Origin: Alphaproteobacteria bacterium
GTDB taxonomy: Bacteria > Pseudomonadota > Alphaproteobacteria > TMED109
Assembly: GCA_022825235.1 (NCBI GenBank)
Contig: JAJDYI010000017.1
Span: 124,001-188,000 of the forward strand
Direction of reading: 5' to 3'
Length of the DNA: 64,000 nucleotides
Positions 751-8,207 of the stretch are shown here, in pieces (position 1 is the first letter of the stretch; each line of letters starts with the position of its first letter). Made by a program: the position numbers and the translations under genes. A model generated the notes under the pieces. The model saw nothing but the letters and a program-made list of their open reading frames with translations. It ran no database searches and was not told the DNA's origin.

Positions 751-2466
751 TTAGTCGATGCCAAAGGCGAACAGGCCGCCGCCCTTGGTGTGGTTCTGGA
801 GCCACTCGCCGAAGGTGAGCGGCCAGATGCCGCCACCACCCGCGCCGACGACGATCGTGATGTACTGCTTGCCGCCAGCGGTGAAGGAGGTCGGGTTGCC
901 GTGCACGCCGGTGCCGACGTTGAAGGACCAGAGTTCTTCGCCGGTGTCGTCGCGGACTGCGTGGAAGAAGCCTTCCGCGTCGCCGTAGAAGACGAGGCCG
1001 CCGGCCGTCGCCATCATGCCGCCTGTCGCGGGCGTGCTGTGCGGACGGATCCAGGTCAGCTCACCGGTCGAGGCGTCGTACGCCTTCACCGCGCCGTTAC
1101 CCTTGTTGAAGGTCAGGACCTTCGCGCCCAGGTACCACTCGCCACGACGCCATTCCATCTTCTTCGCCTGGAGGTCCATCGAGAAGTTGTAGGTCGGGAC
1201 GTAGACCATGTTCACGCGCGGGGAGTAGGCCATCGGGTGCCACTCTTTTCCGCCGTCAAGCGAGGGGGCAATGTCGTTGGTGCGACGGTCGTAGACCACG
1301 TCCATCGCCGGGTCGCCACCCTCTTCCCAGGCCATGATCGGACGGCAGTTGTCCTTGAAGCCAGGGGTCCAGTTGATCCGGCCAAGCGGCACCACCCAGT
1401 TGCACTTCCCGTTGGTACGGTCGATGGAGTAGAGGTGGCCGTTCCGGTCGCCGTGCAGCCAGACTTTCTTGCCGTCGATGTCGGCCAGGATCACCTCGTT
1501 CACGCCGTCGTAGTCATACGGGTCGTTCGGGGTGTACTGGAACCAGAACTTGAGCTCGCCCGTGTCAGGGTCAAGCACGATGGTGGAGTTTGAGTACAGG
1601 TTGTCGCCAAGACGGACGTGACGGTCGAAGTCCGGGCCCGGGTTGCCGACCGGCACGTAGAGCAGGTGCAGGTCCTGGTCGTACGAAGCGGTGATCCACG
1701 TCGAACCGCCGCCGTACTTCCAGGATTCGCCGGCCCACGTGTCGTTGTTGGGCTCGCCTTCAGCCGGAATGGTGTAGGTGTTCCAGATCGTGTCGCCGTT
1801 CTCGTGGTCGAGGGCGCGGACCCAGCCGCGGACGCCGTACTCGGCACCGGCGGTGCCGATGATGATCTTGCCGTCAAGCGCCAGCGGCATGACGGTAAAG
1901 GTCTCGGCGTAGGTGTAGTCACCGACGGTCTTGTCGAAGACGACTTCACCGGTCGCGTTGTCGAGAGCGACCAAGTGTGCGTCGAGCGTTGCGAGGTAGA
2001 CGTTGTCCTTGTACGGGGCGACACCACGGTTCACGACGTCACAGCACAGCTGCGGGTACACGTCGGCCGGCAGCTCGCGTTCGTACTTCCACTTGATCAG
2101 ACCAGTCTGACCATCGGCCGCGATCACGCGGTTGAACGACGTCGTCACGTAGAGGGTGCCACCGACGGCAACGGCCTGGCTGTCCTGCCCTTCGAGGGTT
2201 CCGAACGACAGGTACCACTCAGCCTCGAGGTCCGCAGCGTTGTCCTGGTTGATCGCCGTCTGTAGGGCGTACCGGGTGCTCTCGTAGTCGCGGCCGTAAT
2301 GGAGCCAGTTCATTGGGTCCTTGTCGGCGTTCAGAAGCATGTCGTCCGACACGTAGTTCGGCTGCTGCTTCGGTGCCGCAAGGATGTCAATACCCTGAGC
2401 GAACGCGGACGTCGCGAACCCAAGGCTCACGAGCACGCCGATCGTCAGTTTGGTTAGGAGATGCAT
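751..2466 (-). CDS. PQQ-dependent alcohol dehydrogenase, lanthanide-type (XoxF/ExaF-like)
   Basis: Periplasmic quinoprotein of 571 residues that oxidises a primary alcohol and passes electrons to a c-type cytochrome. An upstream in-frame ATG exists at 2574. ATG 2466 is preferred because GGGAGG sits eight bases upstream and a clean signal peptide (MHLLTKL...TSAFA) follows. Seen: the adjacent-cysteine pair in CCDVVNRG (about residues 141-142), repeated W-motif beta-propeller segments, and the active-site stretch PYDYDGVNE. In that stretch the catalytic Asp (about 318) is followed two residues later by a second Asp (about 320). In this family the second Asp marks lanthanide rather than calcium enzymes. 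No separate cytochrome cL (XoxG) gene lies next to it. Substrate is unknown. Confidence 0.9.
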   Translation of the reverse strand: MHLLTKLTIGVLVSLGFATSAFAQGIDILAAPKQQPNYVSDDMLLNADKDPMNWLHYGRDYESTRYALQTAINQDNAADLEAEWYLSFGTLEGQDSQAVAVGGTLYVTTSFNRVIAADGQTGLIKWKYERELPADVYPQLCCDVVNRGVAPYKDNVYLATLDAHLVALDNATGEVVFDKTVGDYTYAETFTVMPLALDGKIIIGTAGAEYGVRGWVRALDHENGDTIWNTYTIPAEGEPNNDTWAGESWKYGGGSTWITASYDQDLHLLYVPVGNPGPDFDRHVRLGDNLYSNSTIVLDPDTGELKFWFQYTPNDPYDYDGVNEVILADIDGKKVWLHGDRNGHLYSIDRTNGKCNWVVPLGRINWTPGFKDNCRPIMAWEEGGDPAMDVVYDRRTNDIAPSLDGGKEWHPMAYSPRVNMVYVPTYNFSMDLQAKKMEWRRGEWYLGAKVLTFNKGNGAVKAYDASTGELTWIRPHSTPATGGMMATAGGLVFYGDAEGFFHAVRDDTGEELWSFNVGTGVHGNPTSFTAGGKQYITIVVGAGGGGIWPLTFGEWLQNHTKGGGLFAFGID

Positions 2467-2664
2467 TAGGTAATTCCTCCCGTTCAGCATCTTTTCTCTA
2501 GGCAGGGGCCGCGCTCCGATAGCCCGGTCGCGCCTGCGCGCCACCGGTTCCGGTAGTTCGTGCCACGCCGCCATGGCGGCGGAGCCTGAAAGGCCCTTCC
2601 TTTAGTGCGGCGGACTATAGGCGTTTACGGAACAGTGTGCCACCGCCCGGCGCCAAACGGGCCT

Positions 2665-5600
2665 TCAGCCGCTTGGCACACTGCCGGGAGTGAGCGATCG
2701 CCGCAGCCGAACCAGCGGCGGGCACCGCCGGTGGTCGTGGTACTCGACCTGGCAGTCGAGGCACTGGAAGCACTCGTTCATGTTGATGGTGCCGCTCGCG
2801 TGGATGGCCTGGACCGGGCACGCCCGTTCGCACAGCCGGCAGGGGTTTCCGCATTCGGAGCGGCGGGCCAGGTTGCCGAAGATCCGGACCTTGCCGAGGA
2901 CGGCGACCGCCGCCCCGAGGGGGCACAGGAAGCGACAGTAGAAGCGCTCGACAAAGAGACCCAGCGCCAGCAGCACCCCGGCGTACAGAACGTACGGAAG
3001 GCTGCGGTCGAACCGGAGCGTGATGGCCGTCTTGAAGGGCTCCACTTCGGCGAGGGCCTGGGTGGTGCCCATCCCCTGGGTCAGGGTGCTGCCGACCAGG
3101 ACGGCAAGCACCACGTACTTGAGGGCCCACAGCCGCTCGTTTGCCGTTTCGGCGATTGGGAGGGTGGGCAGCCGTACGGCGCGCGCCAACCGCGCCAGCA
3201 GCTCCTGCAGGGCGCCGAACGGGCACAGCCATCCGCAGAAGACGCCGCGCCCGAGCAGCACCAGCGACACCAGTGTGTAGCCGGCGATGATGACGATCAG
3301 CGGCTCGTAGAGAAAACTGGTCCAGCCGCCGGTGACGACGGCCTGGGCATAGGTCAGCACGTTCACGATTGTGAGCTGGGCGTTGGCGACCCAGCCGAGC
3401 CAGCCGATCACGACCGCGAGAAAGACGAAGCGGGCCCACTGGTGGACCCGGCGATTTCGCGAGATTGCGTCGGGCCAGGCCAGGAGCACCGAGAGCACGG
3501 CGAGTAGCATCACCAACCCCATGATCGCTTGGTCGTGCTCGGCCCAGACCCGCTGCCAGCCATCGAGGGCACTGGTCCTGACGAACCCGAGGTAGGCGGT
3601 CTGGACTGGTCGGAGACCGGCGTCCTCCAGGGCGATGGGATCGCCGCCGATGAGATCCTGCGGCAACGTGTACGCCAGGTCGACGCCGCCGCCGCCCGCC
3701 TCCGGCGGGACGCGCAATTCGACGGTCCAGGGTTCGAGCGGGTCGAATTTCCAGTCGCGCGGGATTCGGAACAGGCCGGTCTCGGCGAAGAGGGGTCGTC
3801 CCTCCGCGCGGACGGCGGTGGCGGTCAGCGATTCCGATTTCGTGAAGTCGAAGGATCGCTCGCCTTGGATCAGGCGGATCCGGTCATACTGCCCGGTTCT
3901 CCGGAAGGCATTCCCCCGCCAGGAGATGCGGCCGCTCCCGAGCACGGCGAGGAGCTGATCGCCGTACCCGATCTGCGAAATGTGGTGGTTGAACCACTGG
4001 CCGCCGAACAGGTTGCGGCCGACTTCGGCGGGTGTCGCGAGCGCGGCATAGAACGACAACACGGACTCGTCGGGGCGGTCGGCGTCGTCCGTGATGCCCA
4101 GGTCCCCGGCCGTGAACTCTCCGCCCACGACTCCACCCCAATCCAGCAAGTCCTGCCAGCTTCTCGGCTCATACCGGTCCACGTCGAGCTGGAACGGGCC
4201 GGTGTCCTCTTCCTCGCCCAGCAGGCCTTGGATGCGGGCCATCTTGCGCGCCGACAAGACGATGGCGTTGTAAGTCAGGGTGGCGCTGATCGTGGCGCCC
4301 CGGACCCCGTCCACGCCGCGCCCGGTGAACCGGACGGGGCGGCGGACATCGAGGTTCCTGAGCCCTTCGAACAGGTCCTCGAGCTTGGTCTGCGGAATCA
4401 GGCTCGGCCCCACCATCGGCTCGTGCAACTCGAGGACCGCCGAACCGGTGATGCGGCCGGCGTGATCGAGGCCCACGATGATGTCGAACGGTTCGCCCGA
4501 GTAGCCGCGGGGGTTGACCGTCTCGAAGGTCGAGAACAGCCACCCTTGCACCGAGTCGCCGTCCCGCACGGTCGCCACCGGCGGTGATCCCGCAGGCGAC
4601 TGCACGTCGCCCGCTCCGGGGAACGTCTTTGCCACCACGCCGGGCGTGAGGCGGGTCGAGAGCGGGTCGTACATGTCGGCGTGGGCGCGGTCCGCTGTCG
4701 CCAGCCACCCGGCCAGAACGGCCGCGGCAGCCCCGCCGGCCCGGGCGGCCGCGCGCCCGGGCCGGCGCGCCGGTTTCACCTCCGGGCAGAAGGCGGGGTC
4801 GAAGTACGCTTCTTGGCAGCGCAGGCACTGAATGCACTCCGAGTGATCGATCGTGCCGTCGGCCCGGATAGCGCGCGTCGGGCAAACCGGCTCGCACTTC
4901 GAGCAGCTGGTGCCGCAGGCCCGCCGTCGGCGTAGCCAGTCGAGCATCCGCAGCCGCCCGCCGAGTCCCAGCGCGGCGCCGAAGGGGCAGAGGTACCGGC
5001 AGAACGCCCGTTCGGTAAAGACCGCGATGCCGAGGCAGGCCAGGGCCCAGACTACGTAGGGCCACGGCCGCAGGAACGCATCGCCGATCGCGGTCCCGAA
5101 CGGTTCGGCGGCCAGCGCGGTGTCCAGCATGGCCGGGACGAAGACGGCCACCGCCACGATGCCGGCTAGCACCACGTACTTGAGATACCGAAGGCCGCCG
5201 TGCAGACGCGCTGACGGTTCGTACCGCGGTACCCCGAGCAGGCGCGCCGCCCGATGAATGAAGTCCTGCAGGGCGCCGAACGGGCACAGCCATCCGCAAA
5301 AGGCACCGCGTCCCCAGAGGAGCAGTGCCACCAGGGTGAAAACGGCCACCAGTACCAGCGCCGGGATGCCGAGCAGCGGGCGCCAGTCGCCGGCGGCGGT
5401 CGCGCTCCGGGCGGCGTCAGCGATCTCCTGCAGGCCAGGTTGGACGCCGAACCAGCCGCCCAGCCCGATCAGCGTGGCGGCGAGCAGCCCGCCACGCACC
5501 ACCCGGTACAGGCGCGGGCGCCGGGTCAGCGGGTCCGCCAGGACAATCGTCGCGGTCACGGCCCCGATCAGCAGGATCACTGCGAGGACGCTGAGGCCGG

Positions 5601-6159
5601 ACGTGTGCCAGACGCGTTTCCAGGGTGGCCCCCAAGCGTCGACGAAGCCCTGGCGGTTCGGCATTTGCACGGCGGGCAGCGTGGCCGCATCGAGGACCAG
5701 GTCGCGGTCGATGATCCGGTTGGTCCAGAGCAAGTAGGCGGTCACCGCATAGGTTTCATCGTCGGTCAGCGTGAGCGGCGCGTTGTGCGGCATCGCGCGG
5801 CGGATGTAGTCGAAGAGGGTGGTGGCGTAGGGCCAGTACGAGCCCACCGTCTTCACGGGCTGGGCCGTCCCGAGCGTGCCGACGCCCCCGGTCAGCATGT
5901 CGGCGTCCGCCCCGTCTCCCTGCGCACCATGGCAAACCAGGCACTGCGCCTGGTAGACCGTCTCCCCGGCCTCGACGGTGCCGGAACCGGCCGGCAGGGT
6001 GGCGCCGTCGGGACCGACGGAGATGTCCATCTGCCGAACGATTTCGTCCGGGGCCTCCCGTCCGAGATCGGGCGATGCGGGCGCTTCGGCGGCCCGCCCC
6101 GGCGAGGCGCACGCCAGGACCAGCAGCAGGAGCCGGAAGAACGCGACGGGTCGGATCAC
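2665..6159 (-). CDS. Fusion protein: SoxD-like cytochrome c + NapH-like polyferredoxin + NosR-like FMN/4Fe-4S membrane protein
   Basis: A single 1164-residue frame starts at GTG 6159. Domains in order: signal peptide (1-23); class I cytochrome c with CLVCH at 73-77 and the SoxD-type stretch PVKTVGSYWPYATTLFDY, with M123 as likely axial ligand; membrane segments with CGWLCPFGAL (288-297) and CRYLCPFG (387-394), as in NapH/CcoG proteins; two 4Fe-4S clusters (C415-C426 and C442-C458); a second signal-like hydrophobic stretch (about 467-495); an FMN-binding domain with GVRGATIS (about 618-625); then a second membrane module and a second pair of ferredoxin clusters, as in NosR. It begins 21 bp after the soxC-like gene. 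The overall reaction is unknown; a role in moving electrons between periplasmic enzymes and the quinone pool is inference. Confidence 0.85.
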   Translation of the reverse strand: MIRPVAFFRLLLLVLACASPGRAAEAPASPDLGREAPDEIVRQMDISVGPDGATLPAGSGTVEAGETVYQAQCLVCHGAQGDGADADMLTGGVGTLGTAQPVKTVGSYWPYATTLFDYIRRAMPHNAPLTLTDDETYAVTAYLLWTNRIIDRDLVLDAATLPAVQMPNRQGFVDAWGPPWKRVWHTSGLSVLAVILLIGAVTATIVLADPLTRRPRLYRVVRGGLLAATLIGLGGWFGVQPGLQEIADAARSATAAGDWRPLLGIPALVLVAVFTLVALLLWGRGAFCGWLCPFGALQDFIHRAARLLGVPRYEPSARLHGGLRYLKYVVLAGIVAVAVFVPAMLDTALAAEPFGTAIGDAFLRPWPYVVWALACLGIAVFTERAFCRYLCPFGAALGLGGRLRMLDWLRRRRACGTSCSKCEPVCPTRAIRADGTIDHSECIQCLRCQEAYFDPAFCPEVKPARRPGRAAARAGGAAAAVLAGWLATADRAHADMYDPLSTRLTPGVVAKTFPGAGDVQSPAGSPPVATVRDGDSVQGWLFSTFETVNPRGYSGEPFDIIVGLDHAGRITGSAVLELHEPMVGPSLIPQTKLEDLFEGLRNLDVRRPVRFTGRGVDGVRGATISATLTYNAIVLSARKMARIQGLLGEEEDTGPFQLDVDRYEPRSWQDLLDWGGVVGGEFTAGDLGITDDADRPDESVLSFYAALATPAEVGRNLFGGQWFNHHISQIGYGDQLLAVLGSGRISWRGNAFRRTGQYDRIRLIQGERSFDFTKSESLTATAVRAEGRPLFAETGLFRIPRDWKFDPLEPWTVELRVPPEAGGGGVDLAYTLPQDLIGGDPIALEDAGLRPVQTAYLGFVRTSALDGWQRVWAEHDQAIMGLVMLLAVLSVLLAWPDAISRNRRVHQWARFVFLAVVIGWLGWVANAQLTIVNVLTYAQAVVTGGWTSFLYEPLIVIIAGYTLVSLVLLGRGVFCGWLCPFGALQELLARLARAVRLPTLPIAETANERLWALKYVVLAVLVGSTLTQGMGTTQALAEVEPFKTAITLRFDRSLPYVLYAGVLLALGLFVERFYCRFLCPLGAAVAVLGKVRIFGNLARRSECGNPCRLCERACPVQAIHASGTINMNECFQCLDCQVEYHDHRRCPPLVRLRRSLTPGSVPSG

Positions 6160-6180
6160 GGGTAGCGGGAGTTGCGGGGA

Positions 6181-7428
6181 CTAGAGGTAGACGTTGGTGA
6201 CGCTGCCATCGGCTTCGATCCGCCAGCTCTGGATGGCGTTGCAGTGGTACAGGTGGCCGTGCGCATAGCGGGCGGACCATTCGGCCCGGCTCTCCTGGCG
6301 ATGCCCGGCCTGGTCGGTCGCGCGGGACAGTAGGGTTGCAGGCGCGCCGTCCCAGGTCCAGTTCATCCGGAACCGGACGGGCGCAAACAAGGGGGGCCGG
6401 CCATCGAGTGCGGCCGTCTGCCAGGAGTTTCCCCCGTCGGTCGAGACTTCGACCCGGCGCACGGCTCCGTGCCCTGACCATGCGAGCCCGGAGACGTGCA
6501 GGAAGCCCGGGGCGATCTTCTGCCCGCCGCTCGGCCGGGTGATCACCGATTTCACGTCCATGGGGAAGGTGAACTGGAGCGCCTTGCCGTCCGGGCGCAG
6601 ATCGCTGTACTTGGAGGTCTCATCGCGGGCGTAGACCGGCTCCTCGACGACTTTGAGGCGGCGCAGCCACTTGACGTTGAGGTTGCCCTCCCAGCCGGGG
6701 ACCACCAGCCGCATCGGATAGCCCTGTTCGGGCCGAATCCGCTCGCCATTCTGGTACAGCGCGACCAGGACGTCATCCAATGCCTTCTCCAGCGGGAGGC
6801 TGCGGCTCATCGCGTTGGCGTCCGCGCCCTCCGCGATCAGCCAGCGGGCGCCCCGGCGGGGGCGCGCGTCGCCGAGCAGCAGCGACAGCGGAACCCCGGT
6901 CCACTCGGCCGTGGACACCAGCCCATGGATCATGCCGCACGCTTCGTCGACGGCCAGCGGAAACGCGTTGGAATTGAAGAAGCTGTTGCCGGCGCACTCG
7001 ATGAACAGGATCCGCGTGACCATCGGGTAACGCAGCAGGTCGCCCGGCGTGAACAGGAGTTTCCGTTCGACTTCGCCGTGAATCAGCAGTTCGTGACGCA
7101 GCGGGTCGATGGCGGGTACGCCGTTGTGGCTGCGCTCGAAATGCAGGCCGTTCGGCGTGACGGTGCCCTCGAGGTCCTCGAGCGGCGTCATGGCCACGCC
7201 AGCCCCGGGCGAGACGTCCTCGTACGGCTGCAGGATCTCCCGTCCGACATCCGCTTCCTGGGGGGCCGGCGCCCCGTACTCCCGGAACGGGCGCCCCGGA
7301 ACCTGCATCCAGTCGGGCGCGGCATCGCCCGCCCGCGCGGCCAGCGCCGCGCCGGGCGCCAGGCTGCCGGCGGCCGCACCGCCCAGCAGAACGCGCCGGC
7401 TCAATCGCGGGCTGCGCGGACGGCGCAT
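6181..7428 (-). CDS. soxC: SoxC-like sulfite-oxidase-fold molybdoenzyme (sulfane dehydrogenase subunit)
   Basis: Molybdopterin protein of 415 residues. The chosen ATG at 7428 overlaps the stop of the preceding SDR (TGATG) and gives a twin-arginine leader (SRRVLLGG followed by a hydrophobic stretch), indicating folded export to the periplasm. The cofactor-binding Cys is C145 in FIECAGNSFF. The C-terminal half has the dimerisation domain of the sulfite-oxidase family, with a VSTDGG stretch. Known SoxC pairs with cytochrome SoxD to oxidise sulfane sulfur in the Sox pathway. Here the next gene carries a SoxD-like cytochrome domain, so the pairing is kept but in fused form. No soxAX, soxYZ or soxB lies in the window. 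Confidence 0.85.
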   Translation of the reverse strand: MRRPRSPRLSRRVLLGGAAAGSLAPGAALAARAGDAAPDWMQVPGRPFREYGAPAPQEADVGREILQPYEDVSPGAGVAMTPLEDLEGTVTPNGLHFERSHNGVPAIDPLRHELLIHGEVERKLLFTPGDLLRYPMVTRILFIECAGNSFFNSNAFPLAVDEACGMIHGLVSTAEWTGVPLSLLLGDARPRRGARWLIAEGADANAMSRSLPLEKALDDVLVALYQNGERIRPEQGYPMRLVVPGWEGNLNVKWLRRLKVVEEPVYARDETSKYSDLRPDGKALQFTFPMDVKSVITRPSGGQKIAPGFLHVSGLAWSGHGAVRRVEVSTDGGNSWQTAALDGRPPLFAPVRFRMNWTWDGAPATLLSRATDQAGHRQESRAEWSARYAHGHLYHCNAIQSWRIEADGSVTNVYL

Positions 7429-8207
7429 CACCCGACCCCTTCTCCAAAGCGCTCCTGCAGGCGCCGCATGCCGCGGATCCACCGATCGTGGTCAACGGCC
7501 TTGCGGCGGACGTACTCCGCGACATTGGGGTGCGGCAGGATGAGAAACGTGCCGGCCTCGATGCCGTCGAACGCCGTCCGCGCGACGTCTTCGGGCTCGA
7601 GGACGCCATCGAGGCCGGCCACGCCACCGTCCTCGAGGTTGGCGATCATGTCGGTGCGGACCGCTTGCGGACACAGGGCCGACACACCGAGGCCGCGATC
7701 CCCCCAGGTGATGGACAGCCACTCGGCGTAGGCGAGCGCGGCGTGCTTGGTCACGGCGTACGTCGCCGAGCCGATCTGCGACAGCAGGCCGGCCGCGGAT
7801 ACGGTGATCAGGAAGTACCCGCCCCGTTCTGCCATTGGGGCGGCCAGGCGACGCGTGGCGTAGGCGTGACTCATGACGTTGACGTCCCAGCAGGCCTGCC
7901 AGTCAGCCGCACTCGTGTTAATGCCGCCCGCGCGGTGAATCCCGGCGTTGGAGCAAAAAAGGTCAATGGGTCCGGCGAATGCCTGGGCATTCTCGATGAA
8001 TCTGCCGACCGCCTGATCGTCGCCCACGTCGATCGCCCAGGCACGTCCTCCGCATGCATCCGCGCAAGCTTCAGCGGCAGCGCCATCGAGATCTGCCACC
8101 GCGACGGCCCGCGCGCCTCGGCGGTGCGCTTCCATCGCCAGTGCGCGCCCGATCCCGTTGCCCCCGCCGGTGACGGCGACCACCTTGTCCTTGACGTCCA
8201 TGCTCAT
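7428..8207 (-). CDS. Short-chain dehydrogenase/reductase
   Basis: Classical SDR of 259 residues. The Rossmann nucleotide-binding motif TGGGNGIG is at 13-20 and the catalytic set is S137, Y150 and K154 (YAVTK). ATG 8207 overlaps the stop of the upstream methyltransferase (ATGA), and its own stop overlaps the soxC start, so it is translationally coupled inside the cluster. An Asp at the end of the second strand (VAVADLDG) suggests NAD preference. The substrate cannot be told. The company of an alcohol dehydrogenase allows oxidation of an alcohol or carbonyl intermediate, but that is a guess. Confidence 0.85.
   Translation of the reverse strand: MSMDVKDKVVAVTGGGNGIGRALAMEAHRRGARAVAVADLDGAAAEACADACGGRAWAIDVGDDQAVGRFIENAQAFAGPIDLFCSNAGIHRAGGINTSAADWQACWDVNVMSHAYATRRLAAPMAERGGYFLITVSAAGLLSQIGSATYAVTKHAALAYAEWLSITWGDRGLGVSALCPQAVRTDMIANLEDGGVAGLDGVLEPEDVARTAFDGIEAGTFLILPHPNVAEYVRRKAVDHDRWIRGMRRLQERFGEGVG

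Follow-up and report, generated by a model that had tools for sequence, protein, structure and literature searches.

A SoxC-like gene followed by a SoxD–NosR fusion gene in Alphaproteobacteria: a candidate membrane-anchored SoxCD

SoxCD normally reduces soluble cytochrome c. The locus described here raises the question of where the electrons would go when SoxD is joined, in one reading frame, to a membrane flavin/iron-sulfur protein resembling the NosR of nitrous oxide respiration. It lies in a 64,000-nucleotide stretch (the window) of contig JAJDYI010000017.1 from an alphaproteobacterium, for which a preliminary description had proposed a membrane-wired version of SoxCD able to exchange electrons with quinol or cytoplasmic donors. 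Judged from sequence, such an exchange is plausible, and the reading that we favour, at about evenly balanced confidence, is that SoxC and the fusion form a membrane-anchored SoxCD that would oxidise sulfur and most likely pass the electrons into the quinone pool.

Parts of the fusion gene and its neighbours

The gene order on the minus strand is methyltransferase, short-chain dehydrogenase, soxC, 3.5-kb fusion and PQQ dehydrogenase (Table 1). The fusion begins with GTG after soxC and runs through 1164 codons with zero internal stops. With SoxC over its family cut-off and the NosR match covering almost the whole model, the initial view of soxC followed by one frame that joins three parts holds.

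Table 1. Features of the locus, in window coordinates unless a locus is named
Feature	Position	Strand	Evidence or remark
PQQ-dependent alcohol-type dehydrogenase, conserved downstream neighbour in family	751..2574	-	TIGR03075 550 bits, synteny
Fusion gene, SoxD + NosR-type half + NosR, 1164 aa	2665..6159	-	ORF list, profile and structure matches
NosR-like flavoprotein, residues 495-1160	2680..4677	-	NF046105, AlphaFold2, Foldseek
Flavinylation motif D617-GVRGA-T623	4291..4311	-	Motif consensus from PMC12052999
Junction, signal-peptide-like segment, residues 465-494, ending AHA/D	4678..4767	-	Orthologue alignment
Second NosR-type membrane polyferredoxin half, residues 177-462	4774..5631	-	NosR model, motifs, hydropathy
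SoxD-like monohaem cytochrome c domain, residues 30-173	5641..6072	-	2xts_B, PF13442, PF00034
SoxC-like molybdenum enzyme, 416 aa, twin-arginine signal MRRPRSPRLSRRVLLGG	6181..7431	-	TIGR04555, 2xts_A
Short-chain dehydrogenase, conserved upstream neighbour	7428..8207	-	Domain search, synteny
soxXYZA operon without soxB, own genome	L128:9317-11576		About 30 kb from fusion

SoxC passed the NCBIfam profile TIGR04555 (510.4 bits, cut-off 420), matched 2xts_A with an E value of 1.2e-98 and, as the single match in a profile search of the genome, is its only SoxC. The listed start, GTG 7482, is probably too early; ATG 7431, which overlaps the upstream stop (ATGA) and agrees with the start in locus L122, is preferred. 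The alignment to 2xts_A shows VPGWEGN..VKW, the ECA Cys and the ER.H motif retained. The clade of window-type SoxCs has 11 members, and all of them depart from several residues that do not vary among 26 canonical-side SoxCs; one such position is the first His of FERHH, which is Ser throughout the clade.

The N-terminal cytochrome c of the fusion is indeed SoxD-like, residues 32-173 matching SoxD of the solved SoxCD (2xts_B, E 1.6e-34), and has one haem rather than two, with a single CxxCH (C73) in the form CLVCH at residues 73-77 (5929-5943). The middle part consists of predicted transmembrane helices, two CX3CP motifs and two [4Fe-4S] motif sets, without an FMN domain. It had been called NapH-like, an identity ruled out by its scores, 262 bits to positions 392-675 of the NosR model, the C-terminal half, vs 65 bits to the NapH model; it is instead a NosR-type half whose Cys motifs correspond to those of the NosR part downstream. 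The latter combines a predicted periplasmic FMN domain with transmembrane helices, two CX3CP motifs and two [4Fe-4S] motif sets, and NF046105 aligned its residues 507-1154 to positions 19-679 of the 680 in the model, a full-length domain match. The score of 801.6 bits is below the equivalog cut-off of 1000, which discriminates poorly, since all 71 class genomes with a match, denitrifier controls included, stay below it.

In a full-length AlphaFold2 model, mean pLDDT was mostly about 90 over residues 500-1160, and the best Foldseek match of the modelled NosR part was the covalent-FMN protein RnfG (7zc6_G, probability 1.00). Residues 1-480 were modelled poorly because few aligned rows cover that stretch; a separate model of 1-480 improved the membrane part and left the haem loop weak. 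The motif DGVRGAT has Arg at position 4, where the flavinylation consensus D-x-x-[S/T]-G-A-[S/T] has Ser/Thr (PMC12052999), and one ApbE is encoded elsewhere in the genome. Read in this way, the fusion is a protein with two NosR-type membrane modules and a predicted FMN domain in one only.

With SoxCD, the sulfane dehydrogenase of Paracoccus pantotrophus (2XTS), the locus shares a SoxC over the family cut-off, the aligned SoxD domain and the order soxC then soxD. It differs in its one-haem SoxD fused to membrane redox modules, in a SoxC of a divergent clade and in a genome without SoxB. That SoxD is normally separate is borne out by the 30 soxC loci of the class survey in which it is its own next-door ORF.

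The downstream PQQ dehydrogenase is followed by a separate cytochrome c gene. Its identity is 97-98% across most of the genus and 75-79% in sister genera, and it varies less than the fusion across the genus. It contains a D-Y-D-G motif, which we take to be typical of lanthanide-type enzymes.

Conservation of the frame and its junction

Some of the source genomes are draft metagenome-assembled genomes, and the fusion could in principle be an assembly or annotation error or a decaying gene. However, all 7 genomes of the window's genus carry the frame uninterrupted, at 88-100% identity; along its length synonymous changes mostly exceed non-synonymous ones, an indel at the junction is in frame and the Cys motifs are conserved. 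The intact frames and the in-frame indel rule out an assembly artefact, contradicting the frameshift or assembly join that had been named as a possible refutation, and we give error or decay almost no credence.

The junction between the half and NosR resembles a signal peptide. All seven genus orthologues read AxA/DMYDPL (the slash marks the boundary 494/495), with the endings AHA, AGA or ADA; the core diverges fast, and Ala at -3, Ala at -1 and Asp at +1 are kept in all of them. The segment aligns with the signal peptide of the separate sister-genus NosR, and the separate NosR N-terminus reads ...YA/DMNDPL or ...KA/DMNDPL in genomes G009, G017, G020 and G025. The junction could be a place where signal peptidase cuts or where the chain passes through the membrane. 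Based on the separate NosR of the sister genera and the signal-like AxA/D, the fusion product may be cut in two.

If so, signal peptidase would cut AHA/D to release SoxD-polyferredoxin and NosR as separate mature proteins, a proposal that we rate slightly below an even chance; the same rating goes to its corollary, that the fusion serves stoichiometry and coordinated export and not one wire. A precedent is the cytochrome b/c1 polyprotein of Bradyrhizobium (fbcH). The conserved AxA/D, the fast-diverging core and the alignment to a true NosR signal peptide speak for cleavage, and against it the segment could be the passage that takes the chain from the Fe-S domain in the cytoplasm to the FMN domain in the periplasm. 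The cleavage proposal concerns maturation and is compatible with our main electron-transfer model; since cleavage is compatible with any reading of electron transfer, our degrees of confidence do not sum to one. The chain of haem, Fe-S, FMN and Fe-S in one polypeptide, as first described, thus stands for the single open frame and is put in doubt for the mature protein by the signal-peptide-like junction. As for separate expression of NosR, named at the time as counter-evidence, NosR is part of the fused frame in the window's genus and has its own gene in the sister genera.

SoxCD beside NosR in other lineages

Four sister-genus genomes carry, in order, dehydrogenase, SoxC, SoxD fused to the half, separate NosR and PQQ dehydrogenase. 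Two genomes of another family, G151 and G254, have NosR, NosR, SoxC and SoxD as four neighbouring genes, with the flavinylation motif lost from the second NosR. This non-flavinylated NosR matches the FMN-less half of the fusion, which suggests one flavinylated and one non-flavinylated module in each case. A single NosR, beside ApbE, accompanies SoxC and SoxD in G264, in the Beijerinckiaceae loci L005 and L006 and in the Rhizobiales locus L071. On the SoxC tree, the window's family and G151/G254 form one clade (support 100/99), and the label of NosR coupling requires at least four changes, so that coupling was gained or lost more than once. Coupling may be undercounted because scoring in the class survey was limited to two NosR candidates per genome, the best ones, and the highest-ranking SoxC loci covered about 1.5 kb on each side. 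Among the matches listed in a plasmid search were ordinary NosR genes. Locus L169 (5420-14168) holds a divergent SoxCD without NosR, between two large molybdopterin oxidoreductase-like proteins.

SoxCD plus NosR is a recurrent module, and the triple fusion is its lineage-specific extreme. Because separate, half-fused and fully fused states all occur among sister lineages, the evolutionary steps are testable. Gene content suggests that the half derived from a second NosR of the G151/G254 kind; phylogeny does not decide, as both this grouping (p 0.505) and a duplication of the lineage's own NosR (p 0.171) remain acceptable under the AU test. On the NosR tree the fused half sits on a long branch, and the fusion NosR is separated, with moderate support (80/90), from the denitrifier NosRs in the sample.

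The same comparison bears on the PQQ dehydrogenase, which follows NosR directly throughout the family and which the NosR part might serve, SoxCD being a mere neighbour; NapH-like flavin modules do occur with the ethanol oxidase ExaA in 172 genomes (PMC8238504). Nevertheless, it is SoxD and not the PQQ enzyme that is fused to the module, G151, G264 and the Beijerinckiaceae loci have SoxCD-NosR with no PQQ enzyme next to it, and a separate cytochrome c gene lies beyond the PQQ gene; we consider such service improbable. A membrane-wired SoxCD remains the best reading, as NosR coupling recurs elsewhere in separate genes; the part of the original idea that tied it to a single protein does not extend to the sister genera, in which NosR is a separate gene.

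Genome setting and candidate direction of electron flow

Service to N2O reductase is ruled out for the NosR part: nosZ (PF18764) is absent from the 14 genomes with coupling and was found in 3 of 3 denitrifier controls, and its absence, first noted for the window, holds genome-wide. NosR of nitrous oxide respiration and the fused protein are alike in the FMN domain, the CX3CP motifs, the two [4Fe-4S] motif sets and near full-length correspondence. They are unlike in that the latter scores below the equivalog cut-off (802 vs 1000 bits), has no nosZ, has SoxCD as partner and bears an extra polyferredoxin half in front. NosR-like genes do not imply N2O reduction, as this genome has three of them and no nosZ; the two further ones lie at L087:8726-10978 and L088:9139-11559, one with the degenerate motif DAISRIT.

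Sox genes lie on the same contig. About 30 kb away are soxX, soxY, soxZ and soxA with a flavocytochrome-type gene pair; SoxX, SoxZ and SoxA are over their cut-offs, and for soxY the SoxY profile is the best match, at a score below its cut-off (95.8 vs 125). In five genus members, soxXYZA or soxZ shares a contig with the fusion at a distance of about 30-38 kb. Of 20 genomes, 18 have SoxZ, one without it being the coupled G264, and SoxB exceeded its cut-off in none of the 20 (one weak partial match, 55.6 bits). Where the swinging arm of SoxY normally reads GGCGG, it is GACS in the window's family and G151 and SGCI in G254. Around soxYZ of G151 and G254, the stretches examined contain neither soxX nor soxA. 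SoxYZ without SoxB is common to both main families, and in those members of the window's family that were examined it comes with SoxXA. SoxH is reported to make up for missing SoxB in Sulfurimonas CVO (PMC11237559); no HxHxDH (SoxH-type) protein turned up in the stretches of sequence examined here.

In the favoured model, SoxC would be exported via the Tat route and would oxidise the sulfur atom on the Cys arm of SoxYZ. Its electrons would enter the haem of the fused SoxD domain, by analogy with SoxCD, and move on to FMN, bound covalently in the periplasmic NosR domain, a hand-over that would be topologically simple because both domains are predicted to be periplasmic. They would then run through the two NosR-type membrane/Fe-S modules, acting as an asymmetric pair, and most likely reach the quinone pool rather than soluble cytochrome c; in the topology of NosR, the Fe-S clusters lead to the cytoplasmic face (PMC5928378). 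The model is supported by SoxD fused to a membrane module in the whole genus and by the SoxD-half beside NosR in four sister-genus genomes, by repeated NosR-SoxC-SoxD coupling (G151, G254, G264, L005/L006, L071), and by the lack of nosZ together with Sox genes on the contig, an only SoxC and the presence of ApbE. It is weakened by the missing SoxB, without which the canonical cycle needs some other hydrolase, SoxH for example, in order to close, by NosR in denitrification, which is thought to send electrons the opposite way, toward a periplasmic enzyme, by Arg in the flavinylation motif, and by G264, coupled and without SoxZ.

The direction could also be reversed, with quinol feeding the FMN of NosR, then the SoxD haem and SoxC, which would reduce sulfur or another oxidised compound. 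The models for this are NosR serving N2O reductase and MsrPQ, which uses a sulfite-oxidase-fold enzyme as reductase. MsrPQ is a periplasmic methionine sulfoxide reductase whose Mo enzyme is quinone-linked through a membrane redox protein. In this tie between a sulfite-oxidase-fold Mo enzyme and the quinone pool it resembles our pair, but MsrQ binds b-type haem and is no relative of NosR, a c-type cytochrome is missing from MsrPQ and the genome has its own MsrP elsewhere (L129:1516-2484, same contig, about 16 kb from the window start). Characterised NosR/NapH relatives supply periplasmic reductases (PMC8238504, PMC5928378), and the changed SoxC residues, among them the Ser in FERHH, and the absent SoxB are in keeping with reduction. 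SoxC nevertheless retains its ECA Cys, ER.H and VPGWEGN..VKW, SoxYZ (and SoxXA in the window's family) is kept as an oxidation system would need, and a c-type haem, such as the one retained here, is what SoxC normally reduces. We therefore judge reduction by quinol unlikely, ranking it below sulfur oxidation into quinone, the favoured reading, and above service to the PQQ enzyme.

More tentatively, the two families may share a SoxB-independent periplasmic sulfur pathway with a variant SoxYZ arm, a divergent SoxC and, in the window's family, SoxXA, coupled to quinone through a paired NosR module with one half flavinylated and its parts progressively fused in one lineage. If our main reading is true, sulfur oxidation could enter respiration at the quinone level, with more energy kept, or could be run in reverse. 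The locus would then point to a SoxB-less Sox variant common to two bacterial families and suggest a new way to connect extracytoplasmic sulfur chemistry with the respiratory chain.

It would also add a partner to the modular NapH/NosR-type electron carriers, whose NapH-like flavin modules work with reductases as well as oxidases (PMC8238504). The NapH-like flavinylated systems of Meheust et al. 2021 (PMC8238504) likewise combine a membrane Fe-S protein and extracytosolic FMN in modular association with oxidoreductases, ExaA-type ones included. As partners, the text of that paper gives an ethanol oxidase, a nitrite reductase, a dehalogenase and N2O reductase; it does not mention SoxC, sulfite or molybdopterin. 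Searches for papers pairing SoxC with NosR found no published description, and SoxCD is, as far as we found, a newly seen partner of such carriers.

Xanthine/aldehyde Mo-hydroxylase-like subunit genes lie beside variant soxYZ in G254 and G151 (L195:5516-8221, L196:9558-12248). The window's genome encodes three further SoxZ-domain proteins (L130, L131, L132); L131 and L132 are over the cut-off for the quinoprotein-associated SoxYZ-like carrier, and L130 also holds a PQQ dehydrogenase.
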